Of a stretch of DNA of 64,000 nt, positions 28,944 through 38,227 are shown one piece after another. Position 1 is the stretch's first letter, and every line of letters begins with the position of its first letter. Source of the stretch: Pelagicoccus enzymogenes (GTDB lineage: Bacteria; Verrucomicrobiota; Verrucomicrobiia; Opitutales; Opitutaceae). The position numbers and the translations under genes were made by a program. Below the pieces are notes generated by a model. That model did not search any database, was not told the DNA's origin, and was given only the letters and a program-made list of their open reading frames with translations. The stretch covers positions 627,501-691,500 of the forward strand of contig NZ_JACYFG010000006.1 of the NCBI RefSeq assembly GCF_014803405.1. The letters run 5' to 3'.

Positions 28944-29471
28944 CTAGAGACCAAAATCAGAAGGAGGCGGCAACTCGCCGAAACCGATCACCACTTCGTC
29001 TACCTGCAAATGGTAAAGGTGGCTGAAAAAGCCGGTTTGCCAGACTTCCTCCACCTTGAGCTTTCCGCGCACGCGAATCGGCACGTTGTCCAGCAAGTGG
29101 GCGCCTTTCTTGGCTTGGGCGAAAACGAAGCTGTTGAAAGCGGGCATCTGGCCGTAGCAGCAAGCCCCCGTGTCGGGCATCAACAAAAACTCGCTTACCT
29201 TCTCCCCCTTCACCGAAATCGGCATCATGTAGCCGGTGATCTCCACCGGCTTGCCATCGAGGGCCAAGACGCTGTCCAAGACGTACTGCTTCAAGTACTC
29301 CTCGTCGTCGCGCACCACGACCTTCTTGTCGGCCTCGGGAGCCTCCGGATCGTAGCTTTTGGCCGCCAACAGATCAAAGCCAACCTTCTGGTATTCCTTG
29401 CCGCTCGCCACGCTTGCCAGCGCCAACAGCAGCGAAACAAGGGCCAAGCCTTTCGTCATGCTAAAATTCAT
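28944..29471 (-). CDS. DUF3299 protein, secreted
   Basis: 175 residues with signal peptide (about 1-24). It carries the DUF3299 pattern: LDGKPVEITGYMMPISVKGE, then FLLMPDTGACCYGQMPAFNS with a Cys pair, and an OB-like strand VRGKLKVEE. DUF3299 proteins accompany metal uptake clusters, and here it is the last gene of a five-gene minus-strand operon. Metal chaperone or sensor roles have been suggested for relatives, but the exact role is unknown. Confidence 0.85.
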   Translation of the reverse strand: MNFSMTKGLALVSLLLALASVASGKEYQKVGFDLLAAKSYDPEAPEADKKVVVRDDEEYLKQYVLDSVLALDGKPVEITGYMMPISVKGEKVSEFLLMPDTGACCYGQMPAFNSFVFAQAKKGAHLLDNVPIRVRGKLKVEEVWQTGFFSHLYHLQVDEVVIGFGELPPPSDFGL

Positions 29472-29498
29472 AATCCAACTTCCTCTCTCATCCTAAGA

Positions 29499-29996
29499 TT
29501 AATGCGACCCCTCCGGATAAGGGATCACCACGTTCTCGTAAACCTGCCCAAGCAACTCAAGGCGCTCGAAGCTTACAACGAACTCCCTCAGCCCCACAAG
29601 TTCCGGAGCGCTGGCAGAAAAGAGCGAGCTATTTCCTACCGACTCCCCCGTCGCTTCGCTCGCGACCGCCCGGAAACTTAACTGCCACTCCCGGGATCCG
29701 GCCCTAGCCGTCCCCTCAATGCTCTCCGCCCCGACGCGCACGAAATGCTGCGCGCCCCCGTCCAGCACGTAAAGATCGAGCTCCCGCCGAATCGGGTCCG
29801 GCACGATTTCGATTTGGAAGGCATGGTTCCCCAACATGCCCAGCGCCCCACCGTGCGGGGCCTGGTGGGCATGCCCGTGGCTGCCGTGATCATGATCGTG
29901 CGAGTCACCGCAGCCTACGAGGACAAGCGTCCCAAAAATCGATCCCAAGGCCACGCCCAAACGCGATCCTTTCCCCAAAAACGCTCTCTTCTTCAT
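29499..29996 (-). CDS. His-rich lipoprotein, probable periplasmic metal-binding protein
   Basis: 165 residues from ATG overlapping the permease stop (ATGA); a longer upstream frame runs within the permease gene and is rejected. The lipoprotein signal ends at Cys29 (LVLVGC). Directly after it comes GDSHDHDHGSHGHAHQAPHG, a string of His and Asp like those of zinc-binding proteins (ZnuA/ZrgA types). The rest is a beta domain with no named family. The operon context with TonB receptor, ABC ATPase and permease indicates metal capture before transport. Confidence 0.8.
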   Translation of the reverse strand: MKKRAFLGKGSRLGVALGSIFGTLVLVGCGDSHDHDHGSHGHAHQAPHGGALGMLGNHAFQIEIVPDPIRRELDLYVLDGGAQHFVRVGAESIEGTARAGSREWQLSFRAVASEATGESVGNSSLFSASAPELVGLREFVVSFERLELLGQVYENVVIPYPEGSH

Positions 29997-31195
29997 GACA
30001 AATTCTTTCTGACATCCACTGTGTAGGCTTTCACTGCCGGGGCAACTCCCGCCAAGAAACCAATGAGCAATACTCCGAGCGGCACCGCCCAAAACGCGGC
30101 GTTTGGAGTTAGAAGCTCCAAGACCACGCCTGCCCGATCCCTCACGAATCCCGCCAGGACGTAACCAACGAGCAAATACAAAACCATACCGGCCAGCAGG
30201 CCGCATACAGCGATTCCCAGCGACTCCAAGGTCGCGATCCCAAAGACAACGCGACGCCGCGCCCCCAAGGCTCGCCAAACCGCAATGTCCCGCCGCCGTT
30301 CGCTCATCGCGTTGTAAAGCGTCGCCGTCACGCCCGCCGCCGCGATCACCGCCACCAGCACCGCGATCGCCCGCAAGGCGAAGTCGAACCAGCCGAGCTT
30401 CTCGAAGAGCCGCAAAACGCTTTGGCTAGCCGGCCAGGCCAAAGTCAAACGGTCCCCCCGCTTGTTGTACATCATGTCCAGCTGAAAGCCCGCCGTGCGA
30501 GCCCCCGGATGGAATTTTACCAACGCCGCGCTCACGGAGTTCGCGGCCGCGGCAGCGTGTCCGCTCATGTTTTGCACGCCAGCCACCGGAATCCAGATCA
30601 CCCGATCCGCCGGAGTGCCGGTAGGCTCCAAAACGCCCACCACTTCGTAAAGCTCCTCGTGACGCGCGTTCACGTCGTATTGAAGACCGTGATACGGATG
30701 AAAGGTATCCCCCATCCCCAGCTTCAATTGCTTGGCAGCCTGGCTGCCCACCACTGCCTCGAACTGGCCGTTGGCAAAAACGCGCCCGTCACCCTCAAAT
30801 TCGAATCCATACCCCTCGCGGTACTCGTGCTCCGCCAAGTATTCCGGAACCGTACCCACTAAGCGAATACCGCGATAGTTGTCGCCCACCGCGATCGGAT
30901 AGGCGGCCGCCACCATGCGGTTCGCCTTAATCTGCTCGTAGTCGCTCCAAAGCATCAAGCCGGGCGACTCGTCCAGATGGTAGAGCGCGTTCAGCACGAT
31001 CTGCAGCTTGGAGCCCCTCGGCCCCAGCACCGCGTCAAAGCCGCCGTCCGAAGCGGCAAAGCTGCGCTCCGCCTCCACCTTGAAGCCCCACACCAGCAGC
31101 AGCAAGCACACCGACAAGGCCATCGAGCCCGCCGTCACTGAACTGCTGACCGCTCGGCTGCGCAGCCCCTTCATCGCGATTCGCAGCGGACTCAT
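29993..31195 (-). CDS. FtsX/MacB-like ABC transporter permease
   Basis: 400 residues from the ATG that overlaps the ATPase stop by four bases; 42 upstream residues are rejected. One helix at about 20-37, a large extracytoplasmic domain, then three helices near residues 275-390 match the four-helix FtsX/LolC pattern. The coupling segment before the second last helix reads [19 protein letters not shown]. The partner ATPase is directly upstream. This mechanotransmission type is usually an exporter, but zinc-regulated clusters of the zrg type use it for import-linked functions. Confidence 0.88.
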
Positions 31196-31872
31196 CGGGC
31201 TGCCTCCTCGCTTCGGGAAAGGGCTTCGTTCAACTCGCGAAAGTCGATCTTCCGCTCGAAGCGATCCACGATTGAAAGGTCGTGGCTCACTACCAGGAGC
31301 GAGGCCCCATTCTCCTCGCACATCTCCCGCAAGAGGCCGATTGCTCGCTCGCCCGTTTCCTGGTCGAGGCTCCCGGTCGGCTCGTCAGCCAAAACCAAGC
31401 GCGGCCGGTTCGCCAAAGCCCGAGCCAATGCTACCCGTTGCTGCTGCCCGATCGACAGCTCCGAAGCCCGGTAGCCAATCCGCTCCGCCAGACCGACCCG
31501 CTCCAGCAAGGACTTCGCAAAGTCTCGATCCAGCTTCGCACCGAAAGACATACCCAACTCCACGTTTTCCAAGCAGGTGAAGTCCCGCATCAGATGAAAG
31601 CTCTGGAATACGTAACCGATATTACGGGCCCGAAACCGGTCGCGAGCCGCTTCGCCTAGATCTGTCACCACCGTATCGCCCAAGGAAATCCGGCCCGCGC
31701 TCGCAGCGACAATCCCCGCGATCAGGTGCAGAAAAGTCGTCTTCCCGCAGCCGCTCGGCCCCTTGACCGCGACCTGCTTCCCCGCCTCCAGCGAGAACCG
31801 CGGCACCGACAAAACCGGCTGCGCCTTCCCGCTGTAAGCCATCACTAAATCCTCGATCTCCAACAAAGCCAT
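31192..31872 (-). CDS. LolD/MacB-type ABC ATP-binding protein
   Basis: 226 residues, the expected length of LolD-like ATPases. Walker A is GPSGCGKTT (residues 38-46), signature [15 protein letters not shown] (LSGGQ has Ile at its third position), Walker B is [13 protein letters not shown] and the H-loop lies in LLVVSHDL. Overlap with the permease start (four bases) shows they form one transporter. It is the second gene of the operon after the TonB receptor, with a gap of 201 bases. Confidence 0.93.
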
Positions 31873-32073
31873 ATCCTAACAAACCCGAATACGAACCAAG
31901 CGAGCGAAGTGATTCAGTCAATGAAAGCTTCTTTCAAATGGCAGAGTGTTCGGAAGTGCAGGACGATCACTCCTCCAGCGCAGAAATCGTGCAACTCCAA
32001 TCAGGTAGCGGCCCATCTCCGAACGGCCAGAAAATACCGAGCACGAGCCCAGCACGGGCTATCCCGCTCTTCA

Positions 32074-34263
32074 CTAAAAGCTCGTGCGAACGCCGAGCTT
32101 GAAACTCCGGCCCGGCATCGGAGCAAGGTCCTTCAAGAACGAAGTGTGCGGGCGTGCTTCTTCGTCGCTGAGATTCGTACCTACCACAAAGAGATCCACA
32201 GTCGCCGTATCGCTCGCGTGCATACGGAATCGAGCGTCGGCTCCCCAGAGCGTGTAGCTGTCGGTCGGCAATTGATTGGGGCCGAGGTGAGACGCGCGGT
32301 CATGCCAACGCCCTTCCGCGCCCCACAACCATGGCCCGAAGGCGTATTCGCAGCGCAAGCCAAGGCGACGGGCCGGGATGCGCGGCAGGTTCGTGTTAAA
32401 GCTTTCGTTGGTCGCCCGAGTTTGGTCGTAGAGCAGATCGAGGTGCATGGCGCGATCCGCTTCGTCGAGCAGGTGATAGCGCAGGTCGATTTCGAAGCCG
32501 TAGAACTTAGCGTCCACTGCCGTAGCTTGGTAAACGTTGAGCCCATGCGTATCCAGTTCCCCATACATCTCTTCGGCATCTTCATGATCCAAGAAACGCA
32601 GGTAAACGTAATCGCTGAAATCCGAATAGAACGCCGTCACCTCGCCAGTGATCTTGCCCGCCGTCAACCGGTAGGAAAGGTCCACGCTGGTCGACGACTC
32701 CTTGCCGAGCGTTACATCGCCGATCTCGAAACTTTGAGTTCCCACGTGGGGACCAAAGGCGTACAACTCGCTCGCGTTCGGAGCACGCTCCGCGTAAACG
32801 AGGTTGGCCGAGAGGACCGAGTTCTCGCTCAGTCGGCGAACCAAGCCGGCGGAAGCGTTCACCGTATCGAAGCTGCTATCCTCCAGACTGACGTCGACCG
32901 GATCGATTTCGACGCTCTCGAGACGTGCCCCAAACTCCCACGCGCCCCACTCCTGGTTGAGACGCTCCATGAGAAAGATGCCGTATTGCGAGGTCTCGGA
33001 ACTCGGGATGAAAGCTTCCTCTCCCACTGCCGAAAAGTCGTCCACCTTCGCTTGAAAGCCGAAGGCTCCCGTGAAGTCGCCCACCGGACTGTGAACGCCC
33101 GTCAGGCGCAGCTCGTAGCCGTCGCGCTCGAAAACAGTGCCCACTTCCTCGCCTTCCAACTCGCTGTGCGTGTAGTCGCCAAAAGTCAGGTCGAGCTCCA
33201 GGCTCTCCAAGAAGTCCACCGGATCGAGCAGCTCTCCACGCAGGGCGAAGCGAGACTGGTCGAGATCGATGGTGACGCCCTCTTCATCGTGCTCTTCGTG
33301 CTCCTCTTCCTCATGCTCTTCGCCTTCCTCGTGCTCCTCCTCGTGTTCGTGAGCGTGGGAATGACCAGGCACGCCGTAGTCGCTCGCGTATTCGGAGTAG
33401 GAGACAGCCAAGCTACCGCGATCGCCAAACCACGCCAGGCCGACGTAGCCAGAGCGCGTGTCCACAAAGCTGTTTTCCAGAACTCCAAAAACCGGCTCCT
33501 CGTGATCGTCATGATCTTCGTCTTCGTGCTCACCCTCTTCGTGATCGTGGTCCTCTTCCTCGCCATGATCGTGGTCATGCTCGTGCTCCTCCGCCTCCAT
33601 TTGGTAGAGCGACTCCGCGAAGCCGGGAATTTCGAAGTCATTCGACTGGCGGTCCAGAAAGCCAAGGCTCCAAGCGAAGTTTCCCTGCCCTCCCTGAAAA
33701 GCGGCTCCCACCGACTTCTCGTCGGAAACCGATCCGTAAAAGGTTTCAGACTGCCCGGCAAACGGCTTCAAAGCCCGCTCGCGGGGAAGCTCCTTGCCCA
33801 TTACATTGACCACCCCGCCGATGGCCGCATTTCCGTAAAGCAGCGATGCCGGGCCGCGCACCACTTCGATGTCGTGGGCAAAGAGCGGCTCGATGCTCAC
33901 CCCATGATCGGGACTGGTCTGCGATACGTCAAAACTGTCGGTTCCCTGATTGAGGATGCGAATGCGATCCCCGTCAAAGCCCCGGATCACCGGACGCCCC
34001 GCTCCCGGGCCGTAATAAGTCGAACGCACTCCCGGCTCGCCCGACAAAGTGGCCCCCAGCGACGACTCCGCGGAGCGACGCAGCGATTCCCCCGTCAACT
34101 CTCCCGCCGGCACAACCAGCTCCTCCTTGCTCGTGACAAACGGGCTGGCAGTGATCACCACCGCTTTCAAATCAATCGTGTCCGCGTCGCCAAAAGCGAC
34201 CGAAGGACCAAGCTCCAGCGAGAGCAGAGCAGTCGTAGCCAATAAGTAGTGCGTCGTTCGCAT
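32074..34263 (-). CDS. TonB-dependent outer membrane receptor with His/Glu-rich loops, probable zinc receptor
   Basis: 729 residues. A signal peptide (about 1-25) is followed by an N-terminal plug (AESLRRSAESS type opening ending IEVVRGPASLLYGNAAIGGV, the plug's hallmark). Two barrel loops have extreme composition: residues about 222-255 (HEHDHDHGEEEDHDHEEGEH) and about 300-335 (HSHAHEHEEEHEEGEEHEEE). Such loops capture zinc in ZnuD-type receptors. The C-terminus ends in SFKLGVRTSF, a correct beta-barrel closing strand. It heads the operon with ABC transporter, His-rich lipoprotein and DUF3299. A candidate operator of TTGC repeats lies about 42 bases upstream. Confidence 0.93.
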   Translation of the reverse strand: MRTTHYLLATTALLSLELGPSVAFGDADTIDLKAVVITASPFVTSKEELVVPAGELTGESLRRSAESSLGATLSGEPGVRSTYYGPGAGRPVIRGFDGDRIRILNQGTDSFDVSQTSPDHGVSIEPLFAHDIEVVRGPASLLYGNAAIGGVVNVMGKELPRERALKPFAGQSETFYGSVSDEKSVGAAFQGGQGNFAWSLGFLDRQSNDFEIPGFAESLYQMEAEEHEHDHDHGEEEDHDHEEGEHEDEDHDDHEEPVFGVLENSFVDTRSGYVGLAWFGDRGSLAVSYSEYASDYGVPGHSHAHEHEEEHEEGEEHEEEEHEEHDEEGVTIDLDQSRFALRGELLDPVDFLESLELDLTFGDYTHSELEGEEVGTVFERDGYELRLTGVHSPVGDFTGAFGFQAKVDDFSAVGEEAFIPSSETSQYGIFLMERLNQEWGAWEFGARLESVEIDPVDVSLEDSSFDTVNASAGLVRRLSENSVLSANLVYAERAPNASELYAFGPHVGTQSFEIGDVTLGKESSTSVDLSYRLTAGKITGEVTAFYSDFSDYVYLRFLDHEDAEEMYGELDTHGLNVYQATAVDAKFYGFEIDLRYHLLDEADRAMHLDLLYDQTRATNESFNTNLPRIPARRLGLRCEYAFGPWLWGAEGRWHDRASHLGPNQLPTDSYTLWGADARFRMHASDTATVDLFVVGTNLSDEEARPHTSFLKDLAPMPGRSFKLGVRTSF

Positions 34264-34395: not shown

Positions 34396-36303
34396 TTAGT
34401 TACGGCGGGAGCTCTCTGGCAAATGGACCGCGAGCACCCGCTTCAACTCGTCGACTTTTAGCGGCTTGGAAAGATAGTCATCCATTCCCGACTCTAGGGC
34501 TCTCTCCCGATCCCCTTCCAAGGCGTTGGCGGTGAGGGCGACAATCGGGATCTCCCGCTTTTCGCTCGGAAACTCGCGAATGCGGCGAGAAGCCTCGTAG
34601 CCATCCATCACCGGCATCTGACAATCCATGAGCACGAGGTCGTAGTCGTTGTTTTCGATAGCGCTGAGGGCTTCCTCCCCATTTCCGACCGAACCGTATT
34701 CAAACCCCAACTTCTTTAAGAACCGGGAAACGATCTTGGAATTGATCGCGTTATCGTCGACCACCAAAATCTTCGCTGAACCCGTTGCCGCGTTTTCGCT
34801 GGGGGCAGGTTTCGGCTTCGCCTCCTTCACCTTGCTGGGCCGCTCGCCATCGAGCACACTTGCAAGGGTTTTGACCAACTGACTTTGACGTATCGGCTTT
34901 CTGATTACGCCGTCCACCTTCGCGAGCAAGGCGGGTTCAAGCTTCCTCCCAAATTCTTCTGCGAGCAAAATATCTGGCCCCTCACCGGAAGCGCCGTGCT
35001 GCCAAAACGCGACAAAGTCTACGAGCGACTCCTCCGTGAAATCATTTTCGACGATTACAAGGTCAACTCCCTCAGCATCCCCCTCCAAGCGATCCTTCCA
35101 AGCTTCGCCCGAACGCGGGTGAACCACCTTGACGTTGAAGCAACCCCAACTCCGCAAATGCTGGCAAATCGAATCTGCGAAAAGCGAAGCCTTCTCCGTC
35201 ACGACGATAAAACGACGCTTCAGCATCTCCACCGGCATGGCTTGTTGCAAAGCCACCCCCTTGGGCTGCTTTTCCATGGGAATCTGGAAGCTGAAGCAAG
35301 ACCCCTCGCCGAGCGAGCTTTCCACCTCCAACGTTCCCCCCAGCAAGTCGACCAATCGCTTGGAGATGGCCAATCCCAACCCAGTGCCGCCAAAAATCCG
35401 AGTGTGGGAATCGTCTACTTGCATGAAAGAGCTAAAGAGTTTTCCGATTTTATCCTCCGGGATGCCGATCCCCGTGTCACGTATCGAGTATTCAACGACA
35501 ACTTCACTCCCACGCCTCTTGAGAAGTCGGATCGATATATCGACCGAACCTTCCGTAGTAAACTTTATCGCGTTGCCGGCTATGTTGAGCAGCACTTGCC
35601 GCAGCTTGTGGCTGTCCCCCACCAACAAGCTGGGAACTGCCGGGTCGATCTGGGTGCGAATCTCTACCTTCTTTTCGGAGACCCGACTCGCCAGCAAGCC
35701 CACCACATCATCGGTCAGCGAGATCAAGTCGAAGGGATGCGGATCGAGCTTCATCTTGCCCACTTCCATCTTCGAGAAATCAAGAATGTCGTTTATGATC
35801 ACGAGCAAGGCCTCAGCCGATGCGTATGTAGATTCCGCATACTCAAGCTGCTCCTCGTTTAATTCCGTATCCAAAAGCAACTGCATCATCCCAAGAACCC
35901 CGTTCATCGGAGTGCGAATCTCATGACTCATGTTTGCCAGAAACTGGCTCTTGGCCGCATTGGCGCTTTCCGCCGCTTGGCGGGCTCGCTGGGCATCATC
36001 CAAAATATTCAGCATGGCGCGACCCATCTCGCTGTTCTTAGCCACCTTGCGCTCCAAGTCCTTCATCTCCGACAAGCGCATGTTCAGAAGGGCCCGCGAT
36101 TCATGCCGCTCATTCTCCAGCTCCTCGACGCGTTGCACGCTTTCCTCGAGCAAGCGTTCCATCAGCTTCGACCGCAAGCGCTCGAGCTCACTGAGAGCTT
36201 GGGCGTCGCGCAGCTTGCGTTCGCTCCGTCGCGAGATGGCGACGCAAACGCCCAGGACCAACACAAGGGCGCAACACAGAACTCCTAGCATCACCGTTTC
36301 CAT
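34396..36303 (-). CDS. Hybrid histidine kinase with pseudo-receiver and receiver, partner of the Amt-PAS sensor
   Basis: 635 residues. A single N-terminal helix (about 4-23) leads to a coiled coil (27-110) and HisKA with His127 in [15 protein letters not shown]. The ATPase domain has the N box ([12 protein letters not shown]) and G2 box GTGLGLAIS. Residues about 370-490 resemble a receiver, but its acceptor position reads IVENDF with no properly placed Asp; the conserved Lys is kept (IRKPIR). A true receiver follows ([11 protein letters not shown], acceptor in LVLMDCQMP). With almost no sensor domain of its own and the Amt-PAS gene four bases upstream, it most likely receives the ammonium signal in trans. 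Confidence 0.9.
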
Positions 36304-36307
36304 CTCC

Positions 36308-38227
36308 CTAGGATTTCGCGTTCAGGGCTGAGGATTCGTCGGCGTACGGAAGCTCGCGCCCCAGCTCCCTGCACAAGCGGTTGATCTCGCTCTTCAGCTC
36401 CACCATCCGCATCTCTCGATCGATCGCGATCCCATTGAAGGACTCGATCTGCCGCACCTTTTCCTGCAATTCGTCTCGAGCTCTCTCAGCCTCCCGCTTC
36501 GTCGAGCGCAAGGTTTCCTGATAAACTTCCGCTTGAGTGCGATCTCGTATCTTCAACGTGAATACATCGCGACCTCCAATCCTTCCAGCCGCAGCTTCCA
36601 ACTCTGCCGGAAAGCGAGCTCCGGAACGCCGGACACCCGATAAGCGAATGGCGCCGACCTTGTAGTTTTTGGTGCCCACATGCTCCAGGAGCGTTTCCAC
36701 GGAGTCAAACGCCATGTCCGAATCCGTAGCCAGCAAGTTCCAGATCCACTTCGCTTCGAGCTCGGCGACCGGGTAGCCAAACATCTGCTCCGCGCCGGGG
36801 TTAGCGCTGAGGATTCGGCCTTCCGGGGCGCAGGTGAGGATGGCGTCTTTGGTATCTCGGATGATCAGTTCATTGCGAGCCACCGTTTGCTCCAAGGAGT
36901 CGAGGACCTCGTTGTACTTGCTCGCGATTTGGCCAATCTCGGTGAAAGGCTCCACGTTGACCCGGCGCGACAGGTCGAACTTTTGCGACTGAAGCTCCAT
37001 CTCGCGCAACAGGTCCAGGTGCTCCGTGGAAACCTTGTGCTCGGAAGCATTCAGTCCCATCACTTCGTGCTCCGGGCTCACCCGCAAGCGTATCACCCTC
37101 TTCAATCCTAAAAGAAAAAGGAAAGCGGGAACGAAGCCCACCAAGGCGCAAGTCGCGACCCCCAGGGCCTGCACCCCCAGTTGCTCCATACGGCTTACGT
37201 CACTCGCCCAAGCGCTAGCGTCCCCAAAGAGAGCAACCGCTAAAGTGCCCCAAATGCCCGCTGCGGTATGAACCGAAAACGATCCCACCACGTCGTCCAA
37301 ACGCAGGCGGTCAAAGACGCGGTCCGCCACGATCATCACCAAGGCCCCACCCGCTCCGATGACGAGCGACTCGAGCGAGGAAACGACATGGCAGTTCGCG
37401 GTGATCGCCACCAAACCGGCGAGCAAGCCGTTAGTAATGTACTTGGCGTCTGGATACTTGAGCAATGCCAGACTAGCCAGAAGGGCCGTCACCATGCCAC
37501 TTGTCGCAGCTAAAATCGTATGGGCGACGATAAGAGGCACCTCACCTCCCCAAGCCAGCGTGCTGCCGCCATTGAAGCCGATCCAGCCAAAGGCAAGAAT
37601 CAGGGTTCCCAGCAAGGCCGTAGGCAAGCTCTGCCCGGGGATCGCCCGCGGCTTGCCATCCTCGCCGTAGCGACCGATGCGTGGACCCAACACAATCACC
37701 GCAGCCAAGGCCACCCAGCCTCCCACACTGTGCACCACGGACGAACCCGCAAAGTCTATGAAGCCTATGCCCCCTAACCAACCTTGCTCTCCCCCCATGA
37801 CGCCACCCCACGCCCAGTGCCCAAAGATAGGATACACCAAAGCGGAAACGAAAACGGATATCAGCAGGTAACCTTTGAAGCTCATGCGCTCCGCCACCGC
37901 GCCCGACACGATCGTCACCGCCGTGCCGCAGAACATGGCCTGAAAAAGAAAAAACGCGGCTGACTGCGGCGAGGCTTCACCCGACTCGAAAAAGAAGCCC
38001 GTAGTTCCGAATACCCCGCTCCGAGAGAGGCCGAACATCAAAGCGAAACCAAAAGCCCAATAGACCACGACCGAGATTCCGAAGTCCGTCAGGTTCTTGA
38101 CCGCTACGTTGATGCTGTTCTTGGTGCGCGTCCAACCACTCTCCAAGCAGAGAAAGCCTGCTTGCATCAAAAATACCAAAGCCGCGCTAACGACCACCCA
38201 AAGTAAGTCTATCGATGTTTCGCCCAT
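36308..38227 (-). CDS. Ammonium transporter Amt fused to a cytoplasmic PAS domain
   Basis: 639 residues from ATG at 38227; 22 upstream residues are rejected. The Amt domain (about 5-405) has eleven helices and the twin His residues, in [18 protein letters not shown] and in [11 protein letters not shown], so the pore looks functional. A linker and HAMP-like helix (about 420-460) precede a PAS domain (about 470-590) with [21 protein letters not shown] coiled coil of about 40 residues ends the protein. Amt-kinase fusions are known as ammonium sensors; here the kinase is the separate next gene, only four bases downstream. Confidence 0.92.

Follow-up and report, generated by a model that had tools for sequence, protein, structure and literature searches.

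A 64,000-nucleotide stretch of the genome of the marine bacterium Pelagicoccus enzymogenes (hereafter the window) carries, on its minus strand, a reading frame for an ammonium transporter (Amt) protein that ends in a PAS domain and a helical tail, followed directly by a reading frame for a hybrid histidine kinase. The locus raises the question of whether the two genes act together and, if they do, by what means a sensor in one chain would drive a kinase in another. The answer developed below is that the two genes probably specify a single sensor kinase that responds to ammonium and is divided over two chains, coupled via a general pairing between the tail of the sensor and a short element of the kinase termed the 'MED box'.

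Organization of the gene pair

The two reading frames, Amt-PAS and then hybrid kinase, were both found where the initial annotation had placed them. Their parts, all on the minus strand, are as follows.

36308..38227 (-): Amt-PAS-tail sensor protein, 639 residues (ORF and Pfam)
37031..38203 (-): Amt domain, residues 9-399, with H166/H320 and Q22/E29/N45/D48 (Pfam Ammonium_transp and residue alignment)
36878..37030 (-): cytoplasmic linker C-terminal of the Amt domain, residues 400-450 (76% identity in seven orthologues; alignment with PDB 8qj3/8qpf extends to residue 445)
36536..36877 (-): PAS domain, residues 451-564 (Pfam PAS_9 at 461-564)
36344..36469 (-): C-terminal tail core, residues 587-628, common to other split sensors (profile and orthologue alignment)
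36304..36307 (-): four bases from the TAG stop to the first ATG, with a GGGAG motif
34396..36303 (-): hybrid histidine kinase, 635 residues (ORF and Pfam)
36226..36303 (-): single hydrophobic helix of the kinase, residues 1-26 (19% identity; absent in G039)
36040..36225 (-): kinase coil, residues 27-88 (20% identity among orthologues)
35980..36039 (-): MED box, kinase residues 89-108, 20 residues (orthologue alignment and MED profile)
35764..35955 (-): HisKA, kinase residues 117-180, with a 12-residue H-box (Pfam)
35272..35619 (-): HATPase_c, kinase residues 229-344 (Pfam)
34855..35211 (-): degenerate receiver, kinase residues about 365-483, weakly recognisable (Glu at the expected Asp, read by eye)
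34435..34770 (-): receiver with Asp, Response_reg, kinase residues 512-623 (Pfam)

The second protein combines HisKA, HATPase_c and receiver domains in one chain, as recognised by Pfam, and is thus a hybrid histidine kinase; the 20-residue MED box upstream of its HisKA domain includes a 14-residue motif. A residue check of the Amt domain upheld the earlier statement that both pore histidines (H166 and H320) are kept, and located the Phe pair, Trp, Ser and Asp as well. The four-base gap that had been described between the genes holds for the first ATG of the kinase; the GGGAG motif touches that ATG, however, so that by spacing GTG4 or ATG5, lying 13 or 16 bases past the stop, is the likelier start. 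Similarly, the description of the kinase's own sensor as one helix and a coil was accurate for six of seven orthologues and not for G039, in which no membrane helix was found and the top 19-residue hydropathy was only 0.5. The kinase itself has almost no input domain.

Elsewhere in the window, a minus-strand run at 28944-34263 was read by eye: it comprises genes for an ABC ATPase, for a permease resembling FtsX and for a TonB-receptor-like protein whose loops are rich in His, Asp and Glu, and it looks like a system for metal uptake.

Conserved elements of the two proteins

Orthologous pairs were compared in seven genomes, namely that of the window, G001, G004, G006, G019, G039 and G097 (the last corresponding to locus L044). 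At all seven loci the kinase lies immediately downstream of the Amt-PAS gene and occupies a reading frame of its own, in agreement with the adjacency and the split chain that the initial annotation proposed, and at all seven the tail accompanies that next-gene kinase. The tail, which makes up roughly the final 42 residues (~42) of the Amt chain, follows the pattern FNxxAxxRExRMxELKxEIN. Across the seven Amt proteins, identity was 76% in the linker, 63% in the Amt fold, 41% in the PAS domain, 65% in the tail core and 16% in the final 11 residues; across the seven kinases it was 19% in the helix, 20% in the coil, 57% in the MED box and 75% in HisKA, with 28% in the first receiver and 53% in the second.

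With tail and MED box conserved and the coil poorly so, the candidates for contact are the tail and the box rather than the coils. The earlier proposal that two coiled coils couple the proteins was therefore dropped as the main idea, the kinase coil (27-88) being just 20% identical where the box reaches 57% and the Amt tail 65%, and tail and box recurring together in unrelated split sensors. A profile of the MED box, trained on 14 partner kinases from the loci described below, scored above 8 bits in six of the seven pair kinases and only 2.6 bits in that of G006.

No Pfam model scored above its cut-off for the tail or for the N-terminus of the kinase, and among solved structures the tail profile gave no match with an E-value below 0.3. 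The tail displays a periodicity of 3.5 residues. When the PAS-tail part was joined to the N-terminal part of the kinase and modelled with AlphaFold2, the tail formed one helix (Amt residues 563-622) and the kinase one long helix (residues 19-144), with a mean pLDDT of 70, a pTM of 0.38 and separate helices only; a model of this quality speaks neither for nor against contact.

The tail and the MED box in other sensors and kinases

In several phyla, PAS, GAF and receiver proteins also end in this tail. Tail profiles matched 53 of the 387 genomes searched in the window's own phylum, 28 of 148 from the phylum of a Desulfobulbaceae genome and 44 of 200 from that of an Azoarcus genome, the weakest of these matches being possibly plain coil. 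In 40 regions of the own-phylum set, every one of 49 tail ORFs terminates within 36 residues past the tail. Ten tail proteins had their front parts scanned, and eight contained PAS (two of them with GAF in addition, and one with HAMP) while two contained no known domain; further front parts were receiver or Tll0287-like. A second candidate tail gene in the P. enzymogenes genome (E 1.3) was dismissed, as tail, kinase and MED matches were all absent there.

Sixty-nine tail genes outside the Amt family were collected, and seven with less than 3 kb in view were excluded. For 58 of the remaining 62, a kinase is encoded on the same strand within 4.5 kb downstream, and for 34 it is the next gene. A MED-box kinase follows 48 of the 62 and is missing from 14; part of these 48 matches is circular, as are two of the four control matches below, because the profile was trained on these same loci. 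Among those from the two other phyla, outside the training of the profile, 12 of 17 tail genes were accompanied by a MED-box kinase. Four of the 62 have no kinase recognised by a model downstream, and for one of them (L349) the second downstream gene appears kinase-like by eye. Several operons (L193, L202, L203, L204, L208 and L222) place two or three tail genes ahead of one kinase.

The converse association was examined in a control of 60 high-scoring HisKA kinases from nine genomes, 15 of which have their gene start out of view; in the P. enzymogenes genome, 30 of 79 HisKA matches were viewed. Four of the 60 reached at least 10 bits with the MED profile, two of them members of its training set: the window's kinase, L255 and L266, each directly downstream of a tail gene, and L269, which is the kinase of operon L193 and has two upstream tail genes. 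No tail gene was seen near the other 56 (the 15 of the 60 without a gene start in view notwithstanding). For the 45 kinases whose start could be viewed, all three directly upstream tails would fall to the four MED kinases by chance with a probability of 0.0003.

In loci from the two other phyla, 67 tail ORFs were compared, of which 21 carry the tail at an internal position; a MED-like box lies C-terminal of it in 16 of those 21, and a kinase domain is in view after it in 8 of the 21. The order in L294, for example, is GAF, PAS, tail, PocR (Pfam), MED box and HisKA; in L333 some 30 residues separate tail and box, and in many single-chain proteins a PocR-like stretch intervenes. The occurrence of tail and MED-box kinase in one chain elsewhere, and in two chains here, indicates that they are joined in some lineages and separate in others. 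Four ORFs (L319, L321, L323 and L331) carry two tails, one internal and one C-terminal, which suggests multi-protein relays. In L298, L299 and L318, about 190 residues follow the tail before the chain ends, and by eye these resemble a V4R domain.

Variation of the two elements was also compared, in a set of 45 tail/kinase pairs from which thinning at a kinase identity of 60% left 24. Tail identity and MED identity correlated with r 0.37, a value reached in 2 of 5000 permutations; against the catalytic domain, the corresponding values were -0.07 for the tail and -0.09 for the MED box. With the catalytic domain held constant, the tail-MED correlation was reached in 0 of 2000 permutations. The correlation rose to 0.44 (0 of 5000 permutations) without the Amt pairs, and was weaker without two outliers (r 0.29, 39 of 5000 permutations). 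Inheritance of tail and box as a cassette could also produce such covariation.

In an alternative reading, the two elements would be linker helices of a generic, dimerising kind, co-inherited without mutual contact, while the signal passes by some other route, such as packing of the kinase's membrane helix on the Amt trimer. In favour of it, both elements are helical in the AlphaFold2 model, the tail has its 3.5-residue period, and the PocR-like stretch lies between tail and box in many single chains. The membrane helix, however, is poorly conserved, and in G039 it is absent, yet tail and box are kept; furthermore, the tail covaries with the MED box and the catalytic domain does not. We consider this alternative unlikely, if worth keeping in mind.

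The Amt domain as a candidate sensor

At the ion site described for Ks-Amt5, the residues Q22, E29, N45, D48 and T105 are found in all seven split Amts, with T112 replaced by Ser and T51 by Phe. Two of these positions are discriminating: Q22 is found in 7/7 split Amts, in 77/77 other sensor rows and in none of the four other Amts of the same genome, and D48 in 7/7, 76/77 and 0/4, respectively. E29 and N45 are not, as each is found in two of the four other Amts; moreover, Gln and Asp at the Q22 and D48 positions are also found together in 3 of 23 Amt rows from relatives, which were counted as non-sensors. The residues held in common with Ks-Amt5 imply that the Amt domain may bind ammonium as a sensor.

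In a phylogenetic tree, the seven split Amts make up a single branch (SH-aLRT 98) within the sensor Amts; they group with sensors that bear an output, and the 26 rows lacking an output domain are set apart (support 99). For the residue alignment and tree, L042 and the duplicate loci L043 (identical to L039), L045 (to L037) and L046 (to L036) were dropped, and L029 was omitted from the tree by the tree program; L148 likewise duplicates L044.

Among the scanned Amt loci, and apart from the split family, only L076 displayed a MED match of at least 10 bits or a tail match above 15 bits; a 65-residue antisense ORF in L063, at 15 bits, was judged to be a chance match. L076 encodes a verrucomicrobial chain with the order Amt-PAS, MED box, PAS and HisKA_2, and the ORF immediately upstream of this Amt kinase is Tll0287-like and ends in the tail, the arrangement lying at L076:1440-5486. 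Other outputs were observed as well: an MCPsignal chemoreceptor domain is fused to Amt in L088 and L111, from Planctomycetota records, and a SpoIIE-type phosphatase in L084, L090, L121 and L056. The Amts of L099 and L102, from Spirochaetales records, carry ~200 extra residues in which no output domain was recognised, and are perhaps another split sensor.

The Amt-PAS protein could instead be a transporter, or a sensor that stands alone, with the kinase merely sharing its transcript. Its transporter pore residues are intact, and Amt sensor proteins with outputs other than a kinase exist; on the other side, its grouping in the tree is with the output-bearing sensors, the kinase has scarcely any input of its own, and beyond close relatives it is only this pair that stays together. 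We regard this explanation as decidedly improbable.

Distribution and origin of the split

A search of 57 relatives returned six near-full-length matches, the window included, in addition to G044, which is one chain of 1295 residues. With the C-terminal part as query, 21 of 372 Opitutales genomes gave a match at E 1e-8, seven of these being near-whole-length at identities of at least 50%. Only four of the eight genus members searched carry the pair, which is absent in the other four and is thus accessory. Pelagicoccus mobilis (record L043) is among the carriers.

The junction between the two genes varies among the seven genomes, comprising short gaps, overlapping frames and an in-frame stop, and flanking genes are held in common only between the P. 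enzymogenes genome and G001 and between G004 and G006, whereas the pair itself is kept beyond close relatives. Although in G001 the frames are in phase with just a stop between them, and fused Amt-PAS-kinases such as L041 exist, an assembly error or recent frameshift in a fused gene is barely credible and was dropped: the seven genomes differ in junctions and neighbours, they have start regions of their own, and the conserved tail terminates close to the stop codon; L041, for its part, lacks both tail and MED box.

The seven split kinases form a clade of their own (SH-aLRT 97) that joins none of five fused Amt kinases, the deeper forks being weak. The split could have come from the breakage of an L041-like fusion: the tree keeps the two groups apart, but L041 is the nearest fused Amt kinase, and its highest identity (59%) is to a split kinase.

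A proposed coupling of separate sensors and kinases

What the sequences themselves provide is a pair that is kept, a tail and a box that are both conserved and are associated in many operons, chains elsewhere in which the two occur together, and covariation between them. On these grounds, the locus appears to represent a genuine form of the Amt sensor kinase that is conserved as two proteins. In the proposed mechanism, the Amt part would bind ammonium as a sensor, and a resulting change in the C-terminal linker and PAS domain would move the C-terminal tail helix. The tail would then engage its partner in the MED box or close to it, next to the DHp helix, and thereby set kinase activity, after which phosphate would presumably pass to the receiver at the C-terminus and from there to an unlinked partner in phosphotransfer. 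Tail and MED box would, in that case, be a general means for sensors in separate chains to drive a kinase.

The tail/MED pair would thus correspond to a widespread and apparently unnamed two-protein coupling, into which a putatively ammonium-binding Amt sensor has been plugged. A more specific form of this proposal, to which we would assign about an even chance, is that of an undescribed plug-and-socket in several phyla: (i) that the sensor bears a tail of the form FNRxxxGRExRMIELKxEIN, and the separate kinase a MED box of the form RxALNxMEDAxxAR; (ii) that one kinase takes several exchangeable sensors; and (iii) that an Amt homologue has been plugged in at least twice, as tail bearer in Pelagicoccus and its kin, and within the MED-box kinase of L076.

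Amt channels are trimeric and the kinases dimeric. If the proposal is correct, Amt sensing can reside outside the kinase chain, a point relevant to the way in which a trimeric channel can drive a dimeric kinase. It would also supply rules, at the level of sequence, for matching sensors to kinases across many genomes, as well as two short motifs amenable to bench tests and to the construction of chimeric sensors in laboratory strains. The wider interest lies in the tail/MED pair, in that it looks like a general coupling of separate sensors and kinases.

Comparison with known systems

A literature search that included the motif strings found no paper describing the tail or the MED box. Both motifs may occur in many unannotated kinase operons, and neither is known to have a name. 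The tail was considered as an S-helix, a short conserved coiled helix of signalling proteins, which, as described (PMC1592074), sits between two domains and bears an ERT signature. That assignment was rejected: the tail is C-terminal in most chains found, including the Amt protein and 49 of 49 own-phylum ORFs (it is internal in 21 of the 67 ORFs of the second set), and ERT is found in just 2 of 18 A2 rows.

The top PDB sequence match is to the entries 8qj3, 8qj4 and 8qpf ('Ammonium transporter', 644-661 residues), which align through the linker to residue 445 and not over the PAS domain and tail. These entries may be the Shewanella denitrificans Amt-cyclase; a literature search for that protein gave no match. 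The fused Amt sensors, with HK, GGDEF, SpoIIE or MCP outputs, share the Amt clade, the linker and often the PAS domain, and differ in that their output is in the same chain, the tail is lacking and a MED box is found only in L076.

For Ks-Amt5 of Kuenenia stuttgartiensis, the source (PMC5764959) describes a kinase in the Amt's own chain and no PAS domain, so that the initial annotation's account of known Amt-kinase fusions as single chains applies to that protein. The window's pair resembles it in its intact Amt pore motifs, in its kinase output and in its two-ion site, where Q24, E31, N47, D50 and T109 of Ks-Amt5 correspond to Q22, E29, N45, D48 and T105 here, T112 being Ser; it differs in the PAS domain and tail on the Amt protein, and in a kinase that is separate, hybrid and endowed with its own helix. 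Members of the Ks-Amt5 type are further expected to show ammonium-dependent phosphorylation and no net transport. Ammonia sensing by a kinase outside the Amt family has also been described (PMC12918730). In RsbT-RsbU (PMC12143880), the coiled linker beside the output domain is the target of a second, separate protein; the families are different and the output is a phosphatase. The glucose-6-phosphate sensing system UhpC/UhpB, according to passages of PMC7607045, likewise uses a transporter homologue as the separate sensor of a membrane kinase, and to that extent resembles the present pair; its transporter and kinase belong to other families, and those passages mention neither a PAS domain nor a tail or MED box.
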